64,000 bases of DNA from Tetraselmis striata. Taxonomy: Eukaryota; Chlorophyta; Chlorodendrophyceae; Chlorodendrales; Chlorodendraceae. A model generated the notes under the pieces. It did no database searches. It saw only the letters and a list, made by a program, of their open reading frames with translations, and was not told the origin of the DNA. This document shows, one piece after another, positions 19,446 through 43,600 of the stretch. The position numbers were made by a program, and so were the translations under genes. Each line of letters begins with the position of its first letter. The first letter of the stretch is position 1. The stretch spans positions 1 to 64,000 of the forward strand of contig VCJN01002223.1 in the NCBI GenBank assembly GCA_006384855.1, given 5' to 3'.

Positions 19446-19561
19446 GCGATGTAAAAACTGTCTCGTAACCCGTTGCGAGCAAGGTCACCCTAGGTTGTTC
19501 AAGACCACACCCGGCTCACCACCCGAGTGTGATATTCTCGTCCGTACGTCCGTGCGTTACC

Positions 19562-20431
19562 ATGCCAGATGGAGAAGAACCCGTCGCCGAGCCGACGTTG
19601 GAGTCGCTGAACGCAGATATGAGGGCCCAGTCTTCATTACTGCGAGAGTTGGCTACAGCTGTGGCACAACTGACGGCTCGTGATCGCGTTGTTGGTGGGG
19701 AAGGGGCACATGGCTCCGGCTCCGGGCAGCGTTTCGCGGGACAGCCGACAGGCAGCGGGGGAGCCGCAGAGCGCCCCGACTTGCTAGAGCTAGCCCAGAG
19801 CGGCCGTGTCGGAGCAAAATCCGCGAGTGCCGAGGACGACTACCTCACGGTGCCAGAGCTACTGCAGAGAGCAGAGTCTGGTTACGAGGCCGTTCGACCG
19901 GTCAGCCGAGTGCATGGACTCTTCCCCCTGAGCACCGACCTAACGAACGAGTACCTCAAGCAGGACGACCGGCGTCTGCCGGCCCGGGAGGAGTATTTGT
20001 GGATGTCGTGTTTCGGGGCCCACATGGCCGCACTTTTCGTAGCTCTCGATGAGCTGCTACCTTACGTCCCTGCTGCTAACCAGGACTTCACCCCCTACCT
20101 CGCGAGAGCTCGGAATCACGCCGAGGCCATCGACAAGGCGTTTCGTTTTCGTCTGGCTTTCCCGCGGAGGCTAAATGAGATCAAGCGTGTGCACGGTGAC
20201 CAAGGTGTTCTGGACGTGCTGCGAGCCCAGCATTTTCAGCCTGCTTCGGAGCATCTGGGTTCCGCGATTTTTGGGGACCTCATGAAGGACTACGAGCGTC
20301 GTGTCTTCGAAGCGACCGTTGCCAGCAGCGCAAAGGCGACCGCTACTGCCCCAGTAGCAGCTGCAGCTGCAGGTCGCGGGCGTGGGCGAGGACGTGGCGG
20401 CGGGCGTGGGCGTACGTGGCCGCGAAGGTGA
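19562..20431 (+). CDS. gag-like protein of the tyrosine-recombinase element
   Basis: A 289-aa intronless ORF beginning at ATG 19562 (MPDGEEPVAEPTLE); the frame is open upstream to 19529. It has a short N-terminal helical stretch (RELATAVAQLTARD), a Gly/Ser-rich linker, a helical core with LFPLSTDLTNEY and AHMAALFVALDELL, and a C-terminal RGRGRGRGGGRGR tail typical of RNA-binding. No zinc knuckle is present. The position between A1 and the recombinase matches ORF1 of PAT/DIRS elements. No database assignment is possible from sequence reading alone. Confidence 0.7.
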   Translation: MPDGEEPVAEPTLESLNADMRAQSSLLRELATAVAQLTARDRVVGGEGAHGSGSGQRFAGQPTGSGGAAERPDLLELAQSGRVGAKSASAEDDYLTVPELLQRAESGYEAVRPVSRVHGLFPLSTDLTNEYLKQDDRRLPAREEYLWMSCFGAHMAALFVALDELLPYVPAANQDFTPYLARARNHAEAIDKAFRFRLAFPRRLNEIKRVHGDQGVLDVLRAQHFQPASEHLGSAIFGDLMKDYERRVFEATVASSAKATATAPVAAAAAGRGRGRGRGGGRGRTWPRR

Positions 20432-20897: not shown

Positions 20898-22106
20898 CCG
20901 CTGCTGCCCGTGTACTTTGCGAACAGTAGTCGTACTGGTGGAACTCTGTCGGTAAAACGACGCACGTACGTAATTGACGAGCCCGCAGCTGTCGCCCCGT
21001 GGGCTGCGTCACTGCGATCCCGGCTGCAGGAGGCGTTCGGCTCGGACGAGCTGGGCCAGCGAACGCTCGACATGCTCTCAAGCTCCCTCAGCGCTCAGAC
21101 ACTCAAGAGCTACGCCGGCAGACTGTCTCATTTCGCGGAGTTTTGCCACGACTCTGAGAACATCAGCCCGCTAGAGGCGACTACTGCTACTGTCGTTCGG
21201 TATGTTGCATGGATCGGGGAGCGAGGGCACATCGCAGCTAAGTCGCTGCAACCCTACATGTCCGCAATCAACACGTTCTTCGAGCTGCACGACCTCGTCC
21301 CAATCGCCAAAGACAGTCTACACCTAACTTCAGCAAGGCGTGGCCTGATGCTGCGTCAGCGCCGGCTAGACGCTGCCCCTTTGCGTGTCCCTCTGCCTGC
21401 GGATGTAGCCTACCGCTTCGTCGCAAAGGCCGAGCTAATTGTGTCTGCTCCTTACCCAGAGTACCACCTCGACTTCCGAGCCCTCTTGGTCTCGGTTGTC
21501 AACTTCATGTTCTTCGCCAGGGGCCTTACTGGCGTGTCCTGTCGAGTGCGAGATGTGCATGTCGACACCTACAACATCACCTTGCAAGTGTACCGCGAGA
21601 AGGGTCGCGCTAGCCGACGGGGACCCGACGACATACGCGTACTTCTCCTTCCAGTGTCCGAGCACCCTCGAGTGGCACGTCTCTTGCACCACTTAATCGA
21701 CAACGTCCAATCCGTCCCCCTGGTTACTGTTGGCTTGGCTACATCAAACTTCTGGGCTGTCACTGCGGCCGAGCAGTCAAAACCTTGGACTGCGGCTACA
21801 ATGTCAGACTGGCTATCTGCAGCCATCAGTCTAGTCAACGCTGCCCCCCCTGCTGGCACTTCCTGGACTTCACACAGTCTTCGCCAGGGCGCAGCCTCTG
21901 CAGCGAACGCCATCGGAGTGCCATTGTCCCACATTCGCTACCAAGGCGGTTGGGCCACTAACTCTGACGTCGTTCTGGACTACATCGACCCCAACGTTCT
22001 TCCTTCACCTGGCGCGTGGTTCTTCTTTGGACACATCGCCCCCATCCGCCACTTCCAAGTCCAACAGGACTCCGCAGCGGTGGCCTTCCCAGTGCCTCCT
22101 TCATGA
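20898..22106 (+). CDS. tyrosine recombinase (DIRS/PAT-type integrase)
   Basis: The open frame runs from 20898 to a stop at 22104-22106. The first in-frame ATG is only at 21072, so full expression may need frameshifting, splicing or a non-ATG start. The N-terminal SAM-like region (QTLKSYAGRLSHFAEFC) precedes the catalytic domain. The catalytic residues are present: Arg in FFARGLTG, a Lys in YREKGRA, HSLRQG (H-x2-R), Trp in RYQGGW and the nucleophile Tyr in VLDYIDP. It should recombine a circular element copy into the genome. The intact catalytic set suggests recent activity or selection. Confidence 0.85.
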   Translation, partial: PLLPVYFANSSRTGGTLSVKRRTYVIDEPAAVAPWAASLRSRLQEAFGSDELGQRTLDMLSSSLSAQTLKSYAGRLSHFAEFCHDSENISPLEATTATVVRYVAWIGERGHIAAKSLQPYMSAINTFFELHDLVPIAKDSLHLTSARRGLMLRQRRLDAAPLRVPLPADVAYRFVAKAELIVSAPYPEYHLDFRALLVSVVNFMFFARGLTGVSCRVRDVHVDTYNITLQVYREKGRASRRGPDDIRVLLLPVSEHPRVARLLHHLIDNVQSVPLVTVGLATSNFWAVTAAEQSKPWTAATMSDWLSAAISLVNAAPPAGTSWTSHSLRQGAASAANAIGVPLSHIRYQGGWATNSDVVLDYIDPNVLPSPGAWFFFGHIAPIRHFQVQQDSAAVAFPVPPS

Positions 22107-26931: not shown

Positions 26932-29900
26932 TCAGTAAAAGTTGAAAAGGATGTGCTGGATCTCTTGCCGGCAGATGGGGCAGGCCAGGATGCCGCGCTT
27001 CTTCAAGCCCAGCGCGCATGACTTGCAGCAGCACTTGTGCACACTGCGGCAGGGGGAGGAGGAGGGGGAGAGTGGTCAGAGCGCAGCGTCACACGGCCTG
27101 CCAGAATGCAATCACGCACAAGGCATAGCGAATCGCGGCAGCGTGTACGATACTACCGCTGGTAGTAATAATGTAAGCCACCCGTAGTAGTTAGTGCATA
27201 TATAATGGATTTATGGAATGATGAGGCCGTGTACGACGATCATGTCGTCCCAGCAATATCGGCTCGGCGTGTCCTGGGTTTCCCCGGTTGATGCATCAGC
27301 CCTTCGGGGTTCGAATGAGGCCATGGTCTTAGCAGGGCTATGCCAGACCTACGACTGCACTTGGCGCAAGAGGTCAAGTGCTGGGCCGACGTCTAAGGGC
27401 GAACTTTACTTTTACTTTCACTTTTACGACGATAATGTAGATGATGCTGCTGGCAGCGTATGCGCGATATATGTGGCGCCAGTTGTGCAAAAGTTTACGG
27501 AATATGCAATGCAGATGCAGGTTTCAAAATGTTGTATAAAATATTAATATTGAATAACTGTTAATTATAAAATAAAGCAGTATAACGCCTATTTATGTAG
27601 GAAAGTATATAAACACTGCGCGGATCTATTACTGCTGCTGTTGCGCTCAGCAGACCACCCGCGCAGGCCTCCAGTACCACGCAGCATCACCATACTCGGG
27701 GCGATATGGGAAAGGGGAGTCGCGGGGCAGCGGCGTGGAAGCGCACGGCGCTTTGGCTGCGCACCTGTCTCCGTGAACGAAGCCGGCCGAGCGGGGCTCT
27801 GTGAAGCAGATGACGCACAGTGTGTCCTCGTCAGCCACCTTCCCGGCCTGGTTGCTTGAACCCGACCCCTTGACGCCCTCCGCTGCTGCCGCTCGGGGCT
27901 CCTGAACCGCCGGCAGCGCGGCGACCAGATGCGCGGGGACGCAGAGCTCCTCCACCCCCGCTGGCGAGAGCAGCACACGGGGGCTGTGGGTGGGGACGGC
28001 AGGCAGCTCCTGTGCGTCGAAAAACTCGTCGGCCGGGAGCGGCCGAGGGGCCACGCCTCCGGCGTCCTCTGTAGCCTCGGCCGCGCCGCCGTCATTGAGC
28101 GGCGCACCCTCGCGTGTCGGCGCCAACGTGCCGGCCTCTGCCTCGTCCTCGCCAAACGCAGCAGGAGGCGCGCTGGGCGGCGCAGTCGGCTCCTCGTCCG
28201 GAAGGAGCGGCGGCGCGGATGGGGTCGAGTCGCCCACGGGCGCCGCGCCGGCGACATCGGCTGCGCTGAGCGCCTCGAGCGGAAGGGGCGTGACTGGCGG
28301 GCCTGCAGCCGCGCTTGCGGCGCCGTCCTCCTCCTCGTGCGGCTCCCGCTGCTGCCTCTGCAGTGGAGCAACATAGTGTCACAGAGGTCAGAGAATATGG
28401 CGCGGGAGCACGTGGTTGAGGCTGGAAAAAATAACACCTGGGGGGGGGGGGGGGGGGGGGGAGGGTTCACCTGCGGGGATGGCAGGCTGGCGGCGCGGCG
28501 CGGAGCGACTCTGGTACCAACAGACTGAGCGGACCCTCCAGCCTGGGGCGAGCGCTCCATGGACAGGCTGCACGCGGGCATTGCAGATCACGGGCATTGA
28601 GTGAGTCCCAGGCTCAGGCGGCACGGCGAGACGCAACGAGGATCACACGAAAGGCATGACAAGGAAGGATGATACAAACAACAGCTGTGATGATGATGGC
28701 ATCGACACCGGCCACGAGGCTCATGACACCATATTGGTAGTGCTAGGTATATGGCAGGTGCCGAACGCACCTGCGGGCGCCATTTATAAGAACGAATATG
28801 GGGTGAGAATCTGCCCTGCTTGAGAGTTGAAATGTAGCCGAAGGTATAGCGGAGATATAGTGAATGTTCTTATAATAGATTGCGTCATCAGCAGCCAGTT
28901 TGAGGCAACTCAGGAGGTTTCGTATACATGAGCCGGCATCTTCATAATGCGAATCAATAACACAAACATCCATTTGTGCTAGCACACGAGGCACAGGAAC
29001 ACTCGCTATTACCGACCTCTGACAGTGGGGGCAGCTTCTGATTCACAGTGTTGGGCTGTTGTCATTACTACCGCGTCGGCACCCACAGAGCCAGACACAA
29101 TACTGGCAGATATCAGGATGATGGGAGCATGAAGCTGGCAGCGATCATCGTAATGATGGTAATGATGGTCAAGTGGCGTGCCTAGGCGGCGGCGGGGGGG
29201 GGGGGGGGGGGGGCGGGGGGCATCACCTGCGCATCAGCGCGTGCACCCGGGGGCTGCTCTCCCCCTTGTGGTACTGCGCCTGCAGCCACGCCGCCAACTG
29301 CGCATCGCTCATCCCTGATCTCATCGCACCACACAGCGCCAAGTCGCTCAGCATCCCAGAAAGGCATGCAGTGCAGAAGGGGGCAGGGCCTGCCCCTGCC
29401 CTGCCCCATGATTTTCCTGTTGGATAGGCCCAAGGAAAATCATAAGGAGCTCTGGGGGGGGGGGGGGGGGGGGAGGGGGGACCTGGCGGGGGGATCCGCG
29501 CGCGCGCTGCGGCCAGAGCTGCGTCGCCCGGGGGTACACGAATGTCTGGCATGCTGGACGCGCTGGCTGCCCGTGAGTGACGCCCGGCGTCCAGCGGCGG
29601 GGTCTGCGCGCCATCACGGCATTGGCACCGCTGTCAGTCGCCCATCAGTCGGGGCCGGAGTTACATCCCTGTCTAGCTCTGCCCCAAGCACCGCCCAATC
29701 CATCACGTAGGCCCTGGCCGCACGCCCTGTTGCACTTGCACTGGGCACATATGTGGTACGTGGTATGTGGAGAAGTTGGCGGGGGGGCTGGCTCACCTCA
29801 TACATGCTGTGCGAGCGGGCATGGGAGCCAGGGGTGAGGGGTGCCGGGGGCGGGACGCCCGCAATCGGCACACCGGTGGTGTGTCGGCGCTGCAGGTGGG

Positions 29901-31883
29901 GCTGGGTCCCGGCGTGGCTGTTGATGGCGTTGGCAAACCCCGTGACGGCGGTCCACGCCGCCTGCCATGGCCAGCCAGCGACCCGTCAGTCAGTCGGCCC
30001 ATCCATCAGGACCATGGACAACCAACGCATTAGATATGGGAGCGTGTGTGGAGGATGGCATCGTGGGGCACAAATCAATACGTGAACAACATTTGGGTTG
30101 GCTCGTAGTTGGTGGTTTTGACGGGAAACCCATGCATGAGCCAAATTGTATCCGGGTACTACATCAAATAGGGCAGGCACAAGCAATTCATGGCAGAACC
30201 TACACCTATGCAGCAATAGCATGCTCGGCGGCTGCGAAGCCGATTGAATGGACGGCAACCTCGACTCAACCACATGAACACATTCAATGCCACAGAATCG
30301 ACACATACCGGGGCTGGCTGGATGACGCAGATTTAGGGTTTTGAACCCTGGGCCAGGTGGTCAGGAAGGCAGCCGATGGAGCGGCGCAACAGGGGCGTGC
30401 CTGCTGGGCGATAGCGGGGCCCTCTCCCTCGCTGGCAGCCGGGCGAAACTTGACCCGGCAGCCAACCCGCACGTCGCCCTCCAGGCTGAGGCCTGACACG
30501 GCGGCGGCGGCGGTGCGGCCGGGCGGCAGGCACAGCGTGCACTGCAGCACCTCCTCGTCGGGGGTGGGGCCCGCCTGGAAGCCAACCTCTGCGCGGGCGC
30601 CGTCCAGCCACGCGCGGCTGAATGGCTTGAAGGACTGCACGAGGGGGGGGGGGGGGGGGGGGCGACCGGGATGGATCAGTGCATGCATGAGCATCTACAC
30701 AGTTACTCCCCTGCCTACAAGTTGTAGTAGACGTGCCCCTTTACCACTTGGTGCGGTGACATGCGGGGTTGGTCCAGAGCCGGGGGGGCCAGACCTGAAA
30801 GTCCTTGTAGCAGCAGAGCTGCAGGCGGACCTGCCTGCCAGAGCTGCCCTTGGGGTGCGCGGTGCGCGAGAAGACGGACACCCAGCGGGGCTTCCAGCGG
30901 TGGGAGATGCCGTGGTAGCGGTTGACCTAACGGGCGGGTGAGCAGGCACCCAGCGCGCATCAGCCGGCGCCAAGGAAGCGGCAGGCAAGCGGGCGGTTAG
31001 CTGATGTCGGGCGGGGCGGATGGTGGTTGGGGCTGGCTCACCTTGAGGCTCAGCCAGCCGGAGAAGAGCGCGCGGTTCTCGAACATTCGCACCAGCGTGG
31101 GGAAGCCTTTCATGATGGCAAAGTCCAATGCCGTGAAGCCTGCGCAAGAGCCTCGTGTGTCAGCAAAGGGCGGCCCGCGGGAGTGCGCCGCGGGGTGTTT
31201 GAGGTGTCCTATAGGGAAGAAGGAGAGGGGAGGGGGTACAAGAAGATGTGGGTGGGTAGATGGCAAGGGGCAGCGCTGGGTCGCCTCGCACCCCGCATGT
31301 TCTCTAGGTATGGGTCCGCGCCCACTTCGATGAGCAGCTTGGCCACGGCCTCGAAGCCATTGTGCGCGCACTCGTGCAGCGCACCGCCGCAGCTCTTGGC
31401 GCCGTTGGACAGGCTGTTGACATCGGCGCCTGCCTGGATGAGCTGCGTCGCCGCCCGGGCAGCGTGCCATTCAGGTCAGCGGCTTGCTAAGGATGATTAC
31501 CCCCTCCCCCCTCCCCCCGGGCCATGTTCCTCCTTGCCACGAGTCGCGGAGACCAGACAGGGGCATGCGCAGCACTCGCACCAGCTTTGTCATCAGAAAG
31601 CTGCCGCGCGAGGCCGCCAGCACGATCGGCGTGCGGCCCTGCTTGTCGCGGTGCTCGATGGCCGCCTTCCGCTGCGCCACGCTGCCCGTGGCGGAGTCTA
31701 CCAACAGGTCCTGCCCCACGCAGGCGGCCATCTGTCAGCCCTGCCCAGGCCGCGCCCACACAGCGCCCCACCCGCGGCATGGGCCGGCTGCTCCCGCCGC
31801 ACCTGCAGCCGCTTCACCTCATTGCGCTCCACAAGCTTGTGCACCCGCTCGCCCAGGCTCTTCTTGCGGCCGAAGAGCGGCAT
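26932..31883 (-). CDS. XBAT34/35-like ankyrin-repeat RING E3 ligase with MDM2-type (C2H2C4) RING
   Basis: Twelve exons, all phases consistent, 675 aa: 31883-31803, 31710-31582, 31442-31292, 31139-31042, 30926-30795, 30634-30401, 29961-29797, 29630-29483, 29314-29227, 28567-28471, 28357-27765 and 27043-26932. Residues 45-150 are ankyrin repeats (KQGRTPIVLAASRGS; GGALHECAHNGFEAVAKLL; GFTALDFAIMKGF). A segment beginning FSGWLSLK with RWKPRWVSVF and later AVTGFANAINSHAG matches the middle domain of plant XBAT34/35. A Pro/Ala/Asp-rich linker precedes the C-terminal RING (about 621-672): CVIC, HGDSVH, C-x2-C and CPICRQEI, ending in LFNFY. The His-x4-His spacing is that of MDM2, not the CGH of plant XBAT RINGs. 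Intron 6 appears to use a GC donor. Expected role is ubiquitin transfer. A SINE sits in the last intron. Confidence 0.85.
27251..27427 (+). mobile_element. SINE-like copy 1 (5' truncated), inside last intron of ankyrin-RING gene
   Basis: Shares GGTTGATGCATCAGCCCTTCGG-like and GGGTTCGAATGAGG segments, and a 3' end of GCGAACTTTACTTTTACTTT, with copies at 43869 and 51310. Lies antisense to the host gene. Confidence 0.75.
30401..30402 (-). other. likely GC-AG intron 5' splice site
   Basis: No GT donor keeps the frame at the end of exon 6. CAG|GCACG at this point joins in phase to the acceptor at 29962 and restores the XBAT-like QQ-AAWTAVTGF junction. Confidence 0.55.
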
Positions 31884-33369: not shown

Positions 33370-36069
33370 ATGTCGCGCGAGCGCGACGTTGACAGGGAAT
33401 ACCGCCGCGGCCGCGACCGCTACGACGACCGCGACCGCCGTGATGACCGCCGTGATGACCGTCATGGCGGATATGGCGGTGGCGGTGGCCGGGACAGGGG
33501 CGGCTCTGGCGGCGGCGGGGGGCGTGACGCCCCCACCCGCACCTCCGTCCTTCTGCGGGGCCTGTCGAGAAATTCGAGGTGCGTACGCGAATACACACGC
33601 GCGCCAAGTACTGATATGGCGTGGGAGGCTCACGCCCGTGCTGGGCAGAGCCGGGATCGCCCGTCGTCCGCGGCCGACGGGGTTGCCCCGCGAGAAGCTG
33701 GTGCTTGCTGCCACAGATCTCGCCCGGATCCCTGCGCTGCGCTCGGCCTCGCTTAACATCGCGCCGTGGCCGGGACGGCTTTTTTTTCCGGCACCAGTAA
33801 CGGTACAGGTACCAAACGGGGCCAAGTTCACGCGGCTGCCGACCCCTGGCTGACCTAACTAACATCTAGCTGGCATCTCATCGGTCACGGTGATAGGGTG
33901 AGAATATCTCGTCGAGAGAGTACCTGTAACTGCTTTCGGGATATCGGTGCTCACACTCACTATCTTACAATCCTTATATCTGCTCACCTGGTTGACGTCG
34001 AAGATTTTTATTCGTCTCAAATGCCAAAAAGGAAGGTGGGGGGGGGGGGGGGGGCAGCATTGCTAATGCCAACAGCTTGCTCTCATCGTCGACGCAGGGA
34101 TGCAGACGTGCGCTACTACGCAGAGAAGTACGGCCCGGTGCGGGACGTCTATCTGCCCAGGGACTACTACACCAAGTGCGCCCCGCCCCTCGCCCCGCCC
34201 CGGCCGGCGTTCTAATGGGAGCAACGCAGCCGGCCGATGTCGATGCCTGCGAGGAGGCTGACGCCGCTGATGGGGCGGCTCGGCCGGGCCGCAGGGAGCC
34301 GAGGGGAATCGGCTTTGTGGAGTTTGCCACGCCGGAGGATGCGGAGGACGCGCTGCGCGGCCTGAACGGCAAGATAATTGACGGCCGCGAGGTGGGAGCC
34401 CCCCCCCCCCCCCCCCCCACAACGCGTCAGGCATCGAAGGCAGTTGCTGAGTCCTCTCCCGCCCGCCGGAGTGCAGGTGAAGGCCGTCTTTGCTGAGCAA
34501 GGCCGGAAGAAGCCGGTGGATTTCCTTCGCGGTGGTGGCGGTGGTGGTGGCGGAGGCGGAGGCGGAGGGGGCTACCGCGGTGAGATGCGCATCACCCCCA
34601 TTTCACCCCCCTCCCCCTTCCCTTGTCCCACTTTTTCCCACCCCAGCCACAGTGTACGTCGTCGACACAGTGAATCCCCTGCTGACGTAGCATCGGGCCC
34701 TGCCAGGTGGTGGTGGTGGCGGAGGGGGCTACGGCCGGCGGGACGACCGCAGCAGGTGGGCCCAGCCCAGCCCAGTACTCGCCCAGTACTTGCCCCTCCG
34801 CTGGGGGCCACTTCCACTGTCCTCCCTGTGCTGCACCTGCGCTCAGCCCGTCCATCTGCCGCCCTGTAGGTATGATGATGACCGTGGCCGCGCCGACCGC
34901 GAGCGCCGCAGGAGCCACAGGTGGGCTGCCCTCTACCAGGCCCCCTCCCTCCTGCCGACATGCGTCCGCCCATTTCCATTTTCGAGCGCACACCACGTTT
35001 ATAGATATCAGTCGCATGCGGGATCCTGTGTCGTTCTCCTGTGATCGGGAGTGTTCCCGGTTTGGTCGGTATCAAGCTATTTTCACTTCACTGCCCAGCA
35101 TCCCACCTCTGCATCCACAACACCACAACCCAGCCAGCACGTGGGTGGCTTCCTGACGAACACCCCCCCCCCCCCCCCAATCCCCTCCGCCCTCCACCCT
35201 TTTTTGTGCCGCATAGCCGCTCCCCGCCACCCAGGCGCGGGCGCAGCGGCAGCGGCCGTTCACCGCCGCCGCGCCGCTCAAGGTCGCCAGTGGATCGGCG
35301 CGACCCCTCCCCCCGCCGCGGCGGCTCCCGCTCCCCAGCTCGCTCCCCGGCGCGCTCCCCAGCCCGCTCCCCAGCTCGCTTCCCGCGCCGCTCCCCGGCA
35401 CGCTCCCCAGCCCGCTCCCCAGCTCGCTTCCCGCGCCGCTCCCCGGCGCGCTCCCCGGCGCGCTCCCCAGCCCGCTCTCCAGCCCGCTCCCCAGCGCGCT
35501 CCCCAGCCCGCTCCCCGGATCGCCGCCGGCGCAGCGGCAGCCGCTCCCCACCACGTGATGACGATGATGGCGACCGCTCAATGTCGCCCAGGGATCCCAG
35601 TCCCCAGAAACCCCCCAGGTGGGGATGCCCCCCACCCCATCCCTCACCGTAGCCACGCACCTCCCTGGCCTGCGTGCCAAAGTACAGAGAGGCGCTCCGA
35701 AGGGGAAAGTGGGAGCGGGAGGGGGTGGGTAGTGCCTCTGCAGATGGCTCTGCACCACTGATACCGCCCCGAACCGCCGCAAACATGCTGAAACCCATGG
35801 CGGAGCTGAGTCGGTGGATAGGCGGTGGGAGGGTGACAAAAGGCAGTTGGCCTGTTGCATTAGACACCGGTCAGAGGGCTGAGCAGGTGTCGTTACTCGG
35901 GCTAGCTGCACAGCCACCGGCACGTCACCCTCGGCGCAGCCTGCCCGTGCGCGCTCTGACGCAGATGGCTGGGTGGCGCAGGGCGGACGAGGACATGGAC
36001 GGCCAAGACATGGGCGGCGAGGAGGCGCCGCGCGAGGAGGACCGCGCCAGCGGGGAGGATGAGGAGTAG
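33370..36069 (+). CDS. SR-family splicing factor (SCL/SRSF2-like)
   Basis: Nuclear pre-mRNA splicing regulator. Eight phase-consistent exons, 33370-33578, 34098-34175, 34295-34391, 34477-34579, 34707-34755, 34870-34920, 35217-35618 and 35982-36069, give 358 aa. A charged Arg/Asp N-terminus leads to one RRM (about residues 58-145) with RNP2 VLLRGL and RNP1 [23 protein letters not shown] and [10 protein letters not shown] are hallmarks of SCL/SC35-type SR proteins. Two Gly-rich segments follow, then an RS domain built largely of SPAR tetrapeptides, then an acidic tail ([11 protein letters not shown]). SR genes are often regulated by alternative splicing; its many small exons would allow this, but nothing here proves it. 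TGTAA lies 100 nt past the stop. Confidence 0.92.
35333..35520 (+). repeat. 12-bp tandem repeat coding for SPAR units in RS domain
   Basis: About fifteen imperfect copies of a CGCTCCCCAGCC-like unit, twice interrupted by a FPRR-coding variant. Encodes (SPAR)n within exon 7 of the SR gene. Confidence 0.85.
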
Positions 36070-40712: not shown

Positions 40713-43600
40713 CTATTGGCCGGGGTACTGGCGTGAATTACAAAAAGGGCAGTTCCCCAGAATTAGAAAATCAACACAGCAAGGCGCCGAAAAGCGGCCC
40801 GCATCCCGCATAAGGCGGGATGGATGAGTGATGCGCACACGGTTCAGAGTCCGGGCCACGCGAGCACGTGTGTGTGTGGGTGATCCTCGGACCTGCTGTG
40901 CAGCTTCAGCAACGGGATGGCAGACGAATCTGCGCCGTCTGATGAGGCAGCGAGCGCGCTCTCGAGCGGCCACCAAGCTCAGGACCCCGAAGAAATCTCT
41001 TGCGAGCAAGGCCTCCTGGTGAGCCCGGGTGATGCACCGAGTGCCCCGCGATGAGAGGGCACCCCGATTCGCAGCCAAGCATGCGATACCACGCACTGTG
41101 CGGTGCACCCCCTTGCTCACCTCACCCACTGTGCCGAAGACCATGCCCGTGTACTCCGACATATCCAGGATGTCTCGAAGAGGACCCTTCTGTCCGGGCT
41201 CTGTGTTGTGCCACGGCGCATCCCGCGCAGCCAACCCCCGTTGTATGTCGCCCAACAGGGAGCGCTCAAACCGATCCACAGCCGTGGCCCGGGGCATTAT
41301 TGAAGTGTACTTGACCCCGTACCGCATAGTCTTGAACTCCAGCAACTTCAAGCTCCGGGGATCATAGCTCCCGGTCACGATGTTGAACGCCGGAAGGGAG
41401 AGCTCTGCGTCCGGCACTAGGTCCTTGAGTTCATCCCTGGGTACGGTGTTGCCGAGAGGCACTGCCTGCTGGAACAAGTCATCCACCTCCCGCCGTACCG
41501 CGATACCTAGGTCGTGAACACAGTGATCGCGGAAGGCATCTGCGATAGCGTCGTGCTGTACACGCAAGTGAGCGTCTCCAGGCGCTGGGAGGTTCATGAG
41601 CGCGTCGCCGCATAGATCAACAATGACGGGGTTGTGCTCCGTCAAGGGCAGAATGATCTGGCACCCAACCACCGGGGCCAAGCACGGGCTAGGCGGAAAG
41701 AAGTACCCGGCAGCGACTTCCCGCAGCTCATGCGGAGTCATGGCTGTCCGCGCGGTGGGGATGGCCACTGTCCACATGCCTGACGCCGCGTCGAGCTGGT
41801 TGAACAAGATCCGTTCCCTACATGTGGCAGGGAGAGCGTACATCTCATTTCGAAGCCGAGAGTTGTTGGCCTGGTCTAGAAATGCCGTCAGCTCCTTTTG
41901 CGAGCCCGACGCAACCTCCACTTCCCGCTCCATCTGGCGTGCATCTGCGTCGCCGAGATGGCCAGCAGTAGCCGCTTGGAGGCGGCCCCACGCCTCGCGC
42001 ATCTCCGCGGCGTAGCTGTCCGACCCATGAGCATCGTTGAGGAAGTGGTCATACTGGCGGGCGGAAGAATTTGCGTTGAAGCTGCCTCGGCCAAGTACGG
42101 ACCCGAGCTGTGGGCCGAAGAAACCAGGGGTGGGGGTGGGGGTGCCGGAGTTCCTAGTCAGGAACCTTGGGAGGATGGCATTCATGCAGCCGATGAAGGC
42201 GGCATCACGAACGGTAGCCATGCGGCGGATGCCAGCTCCCTTCAATCGAGTGGGGAGGTGAAGCCTGCTGCGCGCCCTGGCCACTGCATCCTCGCTCAAG
42301 GTAGCCACCTCCGCTGCCATGGGGTTGGGGTCGTGCAAAAGCTCCGCCAGGAAATCGGTGACCACCGGATTGGTGTCGGTGCCGTACGTGGAGGGATCAA
42401 AAGAGACCCCTAGCACCCGTTCGACCGCCGCGAGGATGGTGGCATCCACCGCCTCTGCAAAGGCCTCCACCTCGGACGGAAGACAATTGCGGATCCAATA
42501 CCCCGCCTTGTGTTGCATGCAATGCTTGAGCAGGGCCCATGCGTGGTGATGCAAGGCGTGGGTGTACCGACGGCTGGGCTTGGCAGACAGAAGCTTGCTC
42601 AGGCTAGCGTCCACCTCCTCTCGTAGCTCCTCCGCCTTGCCGCGCATGTACGCCTGCACATACTCTGGCGATCCGAGCGGCACGTTCAGGACCGCGATGC
42701 CGTGATGGCCATCTAGCTCAGGCCACTCGATGTCGGCCGGAGCCTCACGCCGCGTGGCCTCCATGTCAGCGCTGTACGCCTGCATCTTGTCGAAGCGCAC
42801 CTCAAGCCCCACGGACGCCTTGATGGACGTGCGGAAGGCGTGAAGAGCCGGCCAAACGTGCTCCGGAAGGCCCACCAGGAATCCATCGTCGGCGTCGACC
42901 CCCAAGCGCGCCGCCCCGTCATTGACCTCCAACGTGGTATCACACTGCTGCACCTCGGGGTGAATCGCGACGCAAAAGGAAGTCGTGGCCAAAGGTGCGC
43001 CCTGTTGCACGCCGTCCTCCGACCGCAGAGGGGCGGACCGGTCGTCCACGACCAGATACGAATCCGTGGAGAGGGAGGCTAGGAGCGCAGGGATGACCGG
43101 GTGCAGTGGGGAGCAATCGATGTGGCGCTGGATGATGGTGCGGCGCCATGCCTCGTTGTAAGCGTTGCGAAGGTCTGTGTGGACGATGACGGCACGTGGG
43201 CCAAGCTTCTCGGCGATGAGCCGGACACCGTGCGTAGATGAGCACAGAGTCGCCCGCGGGAATGCCAACGCCGAGTTGAGATGGAGCGAGCACCGACACG
43301 TATGCCTCCTTCATGTTGTCCACCACTGCCCGCTCCGCTGCGCGCCGCTCCGCCTCCCCGACTGCCACAGGCCGCACGTCCGGGGCCCTCCCCTCGCCTA
43401 GCTTCTTGACAGGTGCCACGAGCCTAGCAGAGGCGAAGAGCCGGTTGAACCACCCGGGCAGGCGACCTTGGAGGTACATGGAGGCAACCTCCGACATGGC
43501 GCGGACTGCCGCGGGCCCGGACGCCGGGGCGTATTCGCCCACCAAGCAGCGGAGATACTCGTTGCGCATGCCTGAGGGCCCCGCCGCCACGTGCTGCTTG
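40713..43600 (-). pseudogene. non-LTR retrotransposon reverse transcriptase, 5'-truncated and frameshifted
   Basis: Two frames together cover an RT. The upstream frame (about 43600-43225) has AAGPSGMRNEYL, RPVAVGEAERR and PSQLGVGIPAGD. The downstream frame (about 43230-40713) has VIVHTDLRNAYNEAW and the catalytic VDADDGFLVG. A one-base shift near 43225-43235 separates them. The 5' end stops abruptly at a tandem repeat, as in a target-primed insertion. A C-terminal region of about 500 aa follows. It includes DPRSLKLLEFKTMRYG, where the E-F-K could be part of a PD-(D/E)xK nuclease; this is only a suggestion. The element's class is not assigned. Confidence 0.8.
40725..40800 (-). repeat. 3' tail of the retrotransposon, shared with other loci
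   Basis: On the sense strand ends CTTTTTGTAATTCACGCCAGTA. Near-identical to 19168-19243, with the terminal motif also at 22908-22930 and 32940-32960. Confidence 0.8.

Follow-up and report, generated by a model that had tools for sequence, protein, structure and literature searches.

Three described systems stand closest to a gene on the minus strand (31883..26932) of a 64,000-nucleotide stretch, hereafter the window, of contig VCJN01002223.1 of the green alga Tetraselmis striata: the XB3-like ankyrin RING ligases XBAT35 and XBAT34 of Arabidopsis, MDM2 with MDMX, and the mdm2-annotated genes of the alga Aureococcus anophagefferens. According to two reviews, Arabidopsis XBAT35 (as XBAT35.2) has two PSAP motifs and binds the UEV domain of VPS23A, a component of the endosomal sorting complex required for transport I (ESCRT-I); as a result, VPS23A acquires K48 chains and is degraded (PMC9400068, PMC13043654). 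A survey of 187 XB3-like proteins found RING ligands 2 and 3 separated by 11 residues and ligands 3 and 6 by 7 in all three groups; it places the origin of the family in ferns and gives none for Chlamydomonas or Volvox (PMC3596331). MDM2, listed among the ligases for TSG101 (PMC9400068), requires Ile440 to bind E2-ubiquitin, and its last three residues (Y489, F490 and P491) pack on ubiquitin in trans (PMC7190642). Frog MDM2 uses V430, I431 and R470 to contact E2 and ubiquitin (PMC7895813).

The protein of the window combines N-terminal ankyrin repeats and P[ST]AP motifs with a C-terminal RING of the MDM2 type. It belongs fully to neither the XBAT34/35 nor the MDM2 family because at least one tested defining feature is missing for each. 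We lean towards reading it as an XBAT34/35-type ankyrin E3 ligase with an MDM2-type C2H2C4, probably dimeric RING, acting on ESCRT-I. The literature searched revealed neither an ankyrin ligase whose RING is of the MDM2 type nor a green-algal gene of the XBAT35 type. A protein with a plant scaffold, ESCRT docking motifs and an animal-type RING would link the XBAT35-VPS23A and MDM2-TSG101 stories.

Gene model and second genomic copy

The model of 12 exons put forward in an earlier note on this DNA, including its junctions at 28357/27765 and 27043, could be rebuilt as claimed. Joined by splice signals and reading frame, the exons run from a start ATG at 31883 to a stop TGA at 26932 and give 2001 coding bases including the stop, encoding 666 amino acids with no internal stops. 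Splice sites are GT-AG in ten of the 11 introns and GC-AG in intron 6, which separates exons 6 and 7. The two halves of the RING are separated by a phase-2 intron (GAC AG/T, the slash marking the intron). The sequence TGTAA, the usual green-algal polyadenylation signal, is present at 26596-26592, about 340 bases beyond the stop. The features, with their support, are as follows.

31803..31883, minus strand: exon 1, residues 1-27, start codon at 31883 (gene model; indel-free in second copy)
31582..31710, minus strand: exon 2, residues 28-70, start of the ankyrin region (gene model, Pfam, second copy)
31292..31442, minus strand: exon 3, residues 71-121, ankyrin repeats (gene model, Pfam, second copy)
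31042..31139, minus strand: exon 4, residues 121-153, end of the ankyrin region and LFSGW (gene model, second copy)
30795..30926, minus strand: exon 5, residues 154-197, middle region, without Pfam or PDB match (gene model, second copy)
30401..30634, minus strand: exon 6, residues 198-275, middle region, followed by the GC donor (gene model, second copy)
29797..29961, minus strand: exon 7, residues 276-330, end of the middle region (gene model, second copy)
29483..29603, minus strand: exon 8, linker (gene model, second copy)
29227..29314, minus strand: exon 9, linker (gene model, second copy)
28471..28567, minus strand: exon 10, linker (gene model, second copy)
27765..28357, minus strand: exon 11, residues 433-630, proline/alanine-rich linker and first half of the RING (gene model, Pfam, second copy)
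28166..28222, minus strand: P[ST]AP motifs PSAP (residue 478), PTAP (residue 489) and PSAP (residue 493), a motif type recognised by VPS23/TSG101 UEV domains (sequence; putative function by analogy, PMC9400068, PMC13043654)
27765..27817, minus strand: first half of the RING, C613..S630 (CVIC...HGD) (gene model)
27044..27764, minus strand: phase-2 intron within the RING (codon and phase as in the RING of contig C1900, described below)
26932..27043, minus strand: exon 12, second half of the RING (VHKCCCKSC..CPIC), aromatic tail FNFY and stop (gene model, PDB match, second copy)

A search of the 224-Mb assembly revealed a second copy of the gene at C2381:27592-32576 (also L029). Exon-wise searches matched all exons, exon 9 only within a longer match, and direct alignment found all 12 present. 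Over the exons, 2001 of 2001 bases could be aligned, with mismatches at 21 positions and not a single gap column. The 11 introns gave 127 mismatches and 116 gap columns over 2911 aligned bases, the gaps being confined to eight of them. Because the exons are free of indels while the introns carry gaps, the exon boundaries drawn from the genomic sequence, including the junction inside the RING, are supported. Ten of the coding changes are synonymous and 11 replacing (pS 0.0195 and pN 0.0074, from small numbers), and the RING protein sequence is identical in the two copies. The comparison supports a gene that is real and probably constrained, although it is no substitute for a transcript.

Alternatively, the model, drawn from genomic sequence, may have joined an ankyrin/SGW gene to a RING gene next to it on the same strand. 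In favour of such a merger are the lengths of intron 9 (659 bases) and intron 11 (721 bases) and the lack of a domain in linker exons 8-10. We nevertheless consider a merger improbable: all 12 exons are in frame, with length and frame kept in the second copy, and the order of ankyrin repeats, SGW, P[ST]AP linker and C-terminal RING agrees with that of plant XBAT35.

On the coding strand, several introns (at about 30660, 29470, 29210 and 28450, minus strand) contain runs of approximately 15-20 C, in some cases directly after the donor.

The RING domain and its likeness to MDM2

The RING reads C613-x2-C616-x10-H627-x4-H632-x3-C636-x2-C639-x11-C651-x2-C654, and only 12 residues follow C654 before the protein ends in NFY-stop. 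It shares with MDM2 and MDMX (MDM4) the C2H2C4 ligands, the spacing up to ligand 6, CVIC, CPxCRQ (here CPICRQ) and, at the C terminus, a short aromatic tail (here FNFY). Differences from these proteins are the Asp that replaces Lys of the MDM2 HGK, the spacing of 11 instead of 10 residues from ligand 6 to ligand 7, and the ankyrin repeats in place of a p53-binding domain or RanBP2 zinc finger. In contrast, the RINGs of XBAT35 and XBAT34, like those of the XB3-like proteins, are C3HC4, 11 residues separating ligand 2 from ligand 3 and 7 separating ligand 3 from ligand 6; the algal RING has 10 and 11, and both its third and fourth ligands are His.

When the protein was compared with PDB chains by phmmer, MDM2 was the best match (5.5e-11, 45 bits), followed by MDM4 (6.9e-9); the next match of a different kind was MYCBP2 (3.7e-4). 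Identity with the MDM2 RING is 44% along the whole domain. The ligands, their spacing, the best PDB match and a small tree all bear out the MDM2-type C2H2C4 RING that the earlier note had described. The short aromatic C-terminal tail that it pointed out is present as well.

Another such RING is encoded on contig C1900 at about 142146-142464 (CIICMHEPSTIAFLHGDS / LHTCCCAACASTYMKGAQENGKLTCPYCRQPCEGVYTNYTV-stop, splice read by eye). An intron (here GAC AG/C) interrupts it at the position, codon and phase alike, where the window RING is interrupted, and the two RINGs are 42-44% identical. Its best PDB match is also MDM2 (1.6e-5), the next kind being TRIM30 (0.049), with MDM4 at 0.087. A search of the 9.6 kb preceding it with the window protein gave hits at E 2.2 or worse only and matched neither ankyrin repeats nor SGW, so the C1900 gene is a different one. 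Because that gene has the same RING type and the same intron, the MDM2-type RING is, on this evidence, shared or duplicated inside the algal lineage. Just before the C1900 RING, at about 135000-140000 (L081), lies a tandem array in which long frames repeat each 1521 bases (135005, 136526, 138047, 139568).

To see how the two RINGs stand among those of their own genome, all 54 PF13920 places were read, giving 44 distinct stretches. None of the 44 is H-x4-H and all have Cys as third ligand, so C3HC4 is the common RING form in this genome; the genome holds at least two H-x4-H RINGs, as a PF13920 profile search misses RINGs split by introns. For pairwise comparison and a tree, 29 other RINGs of the genome were drawn from 44 of the 54 places by a pattern that disfavours H-x4-H forms, and this set is therefore unfit as a ligand count. 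Against the C1900 RING the window RING scored 154 and against MDM2 121; none of the 29 exceeded 81. In the tree (32 rows, 52 columns), the window and C1900 RINGs join with support of 100/95, and MDM2 joins both with 90/85. On this tree of MDM2 and RINGs of the one genome, shared ancestry of the window RING with that of MDM2 is favoured but not proven. RINGs of the H-x4-H form occur in other protists. A placement among ordinary C3HC4 XBAT RINGs, named in the earlier note as the outcome that would speak against it, was obtained neither from the ligands nor from this tree, which is without land-plant XBAT RINGs.

The same E3 could instead carry a derived XBAT-type C3HC4 RING that turned to H-x4-H within the algae, in which case its likeness to MDM2 would be convergent and imply only a general mechanism of C-terminal dimeric RINGs. 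We regard this as possible but clearly less likely than the reading given at the outset. The position of the RING in the protein is unchanged, C3HC4 is the usual form in the genome (44 of 44 distinct stretches), and the algal RING has in common with XB3-like RINGs a Pro following ligand 7, an Arg following ligand 8, an Ile preceding ligand 2 and, as in their group III, a distance of 11 residues from ligand 6 to ligand 7 (PMC3596331). On the other side, the likeness to MDM2 spans the whole domain (44% identity, 45 bits), and MDM2 is nearer to the window RING than any of the 29 other RINGs of its own genome (121 versus 81 or less), as it is in the tree. A convergent RING would be a clean natural case of a zinc-ligand change with the position in the protein kept.

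Likeness to MDM2 also raises the question of p53. In the alga Aureococcus anophagefferens, said to lack p53, several genes are annotated as mdm2 homologues, and the authors of that work deem a functional p53 equivalent likely, mdm2-like genes being abundant (PMC11371579). That the window protein is an MDM2-like regulator of a p53-like factor is very improbable in spite of its RING. Neither the N-terminal p53-binding (SWIB-type) domain of MDM2 nor a RanBP2-type zinc finger was found in the 666 amino acids by Pfam at E up to 1. The p53 family (PF00870) had no match in the genome, a weak negative because the control genomes gave none either. Aureococcus is a different kind of alga and not a green one. 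The novelty that the earlier note saw in an ankyrin ligase with an MDM2-like RING in an alga holds for the combination, which is unreported in the literature searched; a claim to be first in an alga is weakened by the Aureococcus annotations (PMC11371579). The C1900 gene shows that within this genome the RING type is not unique to the window gene, and the H-x4-H RINGs of other protists also speak against full novelty.

Other weak candidates from the same genome were dropped. L039/L040 end in CPLC...RIYM-stop, but the first half of a RING was not seen; L084 is a C-x-H RING; L085, L087 and L089-L091 are apparent noise; and no RING was seen in L036 and its region L042. Neither the RINGs of the window and C1900 nor two RING alignments nor the ankyrin-plus-middle region found a RING relative in viral contigs, the pattern-based scans of outside contigs detecting close relatives only. 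Three viral loci (L093-L095), matched through ankyrin repeats without a RING match, were dropped. Bacterial and archaeal contigs gave no relative in one scan and a single match in another (L096). The latter is short and falls where a frame begins that has a zinc-ribbon-like motif but lacks a RING; it was rejected as chance.

P[ST]AP motifs, the plant-type scaffold and a possible link to ESCRT-I

The best clue to function was missed by the earlier note. Ahead of the RING, the linker carries three P[ST]AP motifs in both genomic copies, so that the protein has the PSAP-motif trait of XBAT34/35 by sequence; XBAT35 has two such motifs in its linker (PMC13043654). Shuffles of the 312-residue linker gave 0.17 expected motifs (P 0.0007 for three or more) and a first-order Markov control 0.13 (P 0.0003), P values that are not blind because the motif, itself fixed by the literature, was sought after we had thought of XBAT35. 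Among 36 proline/alanine-rich frames of at least 150 residues in the window (7159 residues), more than one P[ST]AP occurs only in this linker; the other 35 contain four in total. A possible partner is encoded as well. The genome holds, in two copies, a TSG101-like UEV exon (1.4e-13, profile positions 42-95 of 121), and all seven PDB matches listed for it are TSG101.

The scaffold was examined with Pfam, which found Ank_2 (2.7e-12), Ank in two stretches and the RING as zf-C3HC4_3 (4.6e-8, above cut-off) in the same protein, as the earlier note had proposed. N-terminal ankyrin repeats, numbering two to seven, are also a trait of the XB3-like proteins. At E up to 1, one sub-threshold chance match was found besides the ankyrin families and the RING. 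The ankyrin repeats with LFSGW matched an approximate XBAT35 sequence with 8e-18; by this sequence, XBAT35 and XBAT34 likewise have N-terminal ankyrin repeats, then LFSGW, and a C-terminal RING. The label XBAT34/35-type given by the earlier note therefore stands on layout, LFSGW and the P[ST]AP motifs, since the middle domain it also invoked is unproven.

If the favoured reading is right, the three P[ST]AP motifs would bind the UEV domain of the algal VPS23/TSG101, as in Arabidopsis XBAT35, and the ankyrin repeats may bind a further partner. By analogy with MDM2, the RING would pair through its aromatic C-terminal tail and use its CVIC face and the Arg that follows the final Cys to recruit E2-ubiquitin. 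ESCRT-I would thereby be ubiquitinated and its amount or sorting altered.

Several observations weigh against this reading. The gene model is drawn from genomic sequence. The middle region (from LFSGW at residue 145 to about 290) has no Pfam match and no PDB chain match at E up to 10, and alone it scores 39 against the approximate XBAT35 sequence, which 42 of 1000 shuffles reach. The P[ST]AP motifs sit in a proline/alanine-rich linker and were sought once XBAT35 had come to mind. The UEV was found as one stretch only, and one later exon of its gene is without a Pfam domain. The RING tree has long branches (C1900 among them) over its 52 columns, 17 of its 29 inner branches are open, and its bootstrap is unsettled.

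An XBAT34/35-like gene in a green alga would stand against the fern origin of the family and its absence from Chlamydomonas and Volvox in the XB3-like survey (PMC3596331). That survey required C3HC4 RINGs, and a gene of the present type might have been passed over. The genome searched here is that of a photosynthetic organism and agrees with a green alga: it contains 63 chlorophyll a/b-binding matches and, within a long frame of a 90-kb contig, one match to the RuBisCO small subunit. The gene also raises the question of whether MDM2-type RINGs and the ESCRT link predate p53 control. Unlikely in our view, if worth stating, is that C2H2C4 RINGs of the MDM2 type form an ancient eukaryotic class that first partnered with ESCRT-I (VPS23/TSG101), here by way of P[ST]AP motifs on a scaffold of the XBAT35 type. 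Control of p53 would then have been added later, in animals, and the ubiquitination of TSG101 by MDM2 would be left over from the older role.

Other features of the window

A 398-residue frame at 20910-22106 (plus strand) matches Phage_int_SAM_1 (4.6e-8), with Phage_integrase (0.0029) below cut-off, and is by these matches a tyrosine-recombinase mobile element. The frame preceding it, 19529-20431 (plus strand), has no Pfam match. An open frame of 851 residues at 40713-43268 (minus strand) looks by eye like a retroelement of the reverse-transcriptase type and gave no Pfam match at 0.01. A tandem repeat with periods of 12 and 48 is present at 35327-35523, within a long frame of the minus strand.

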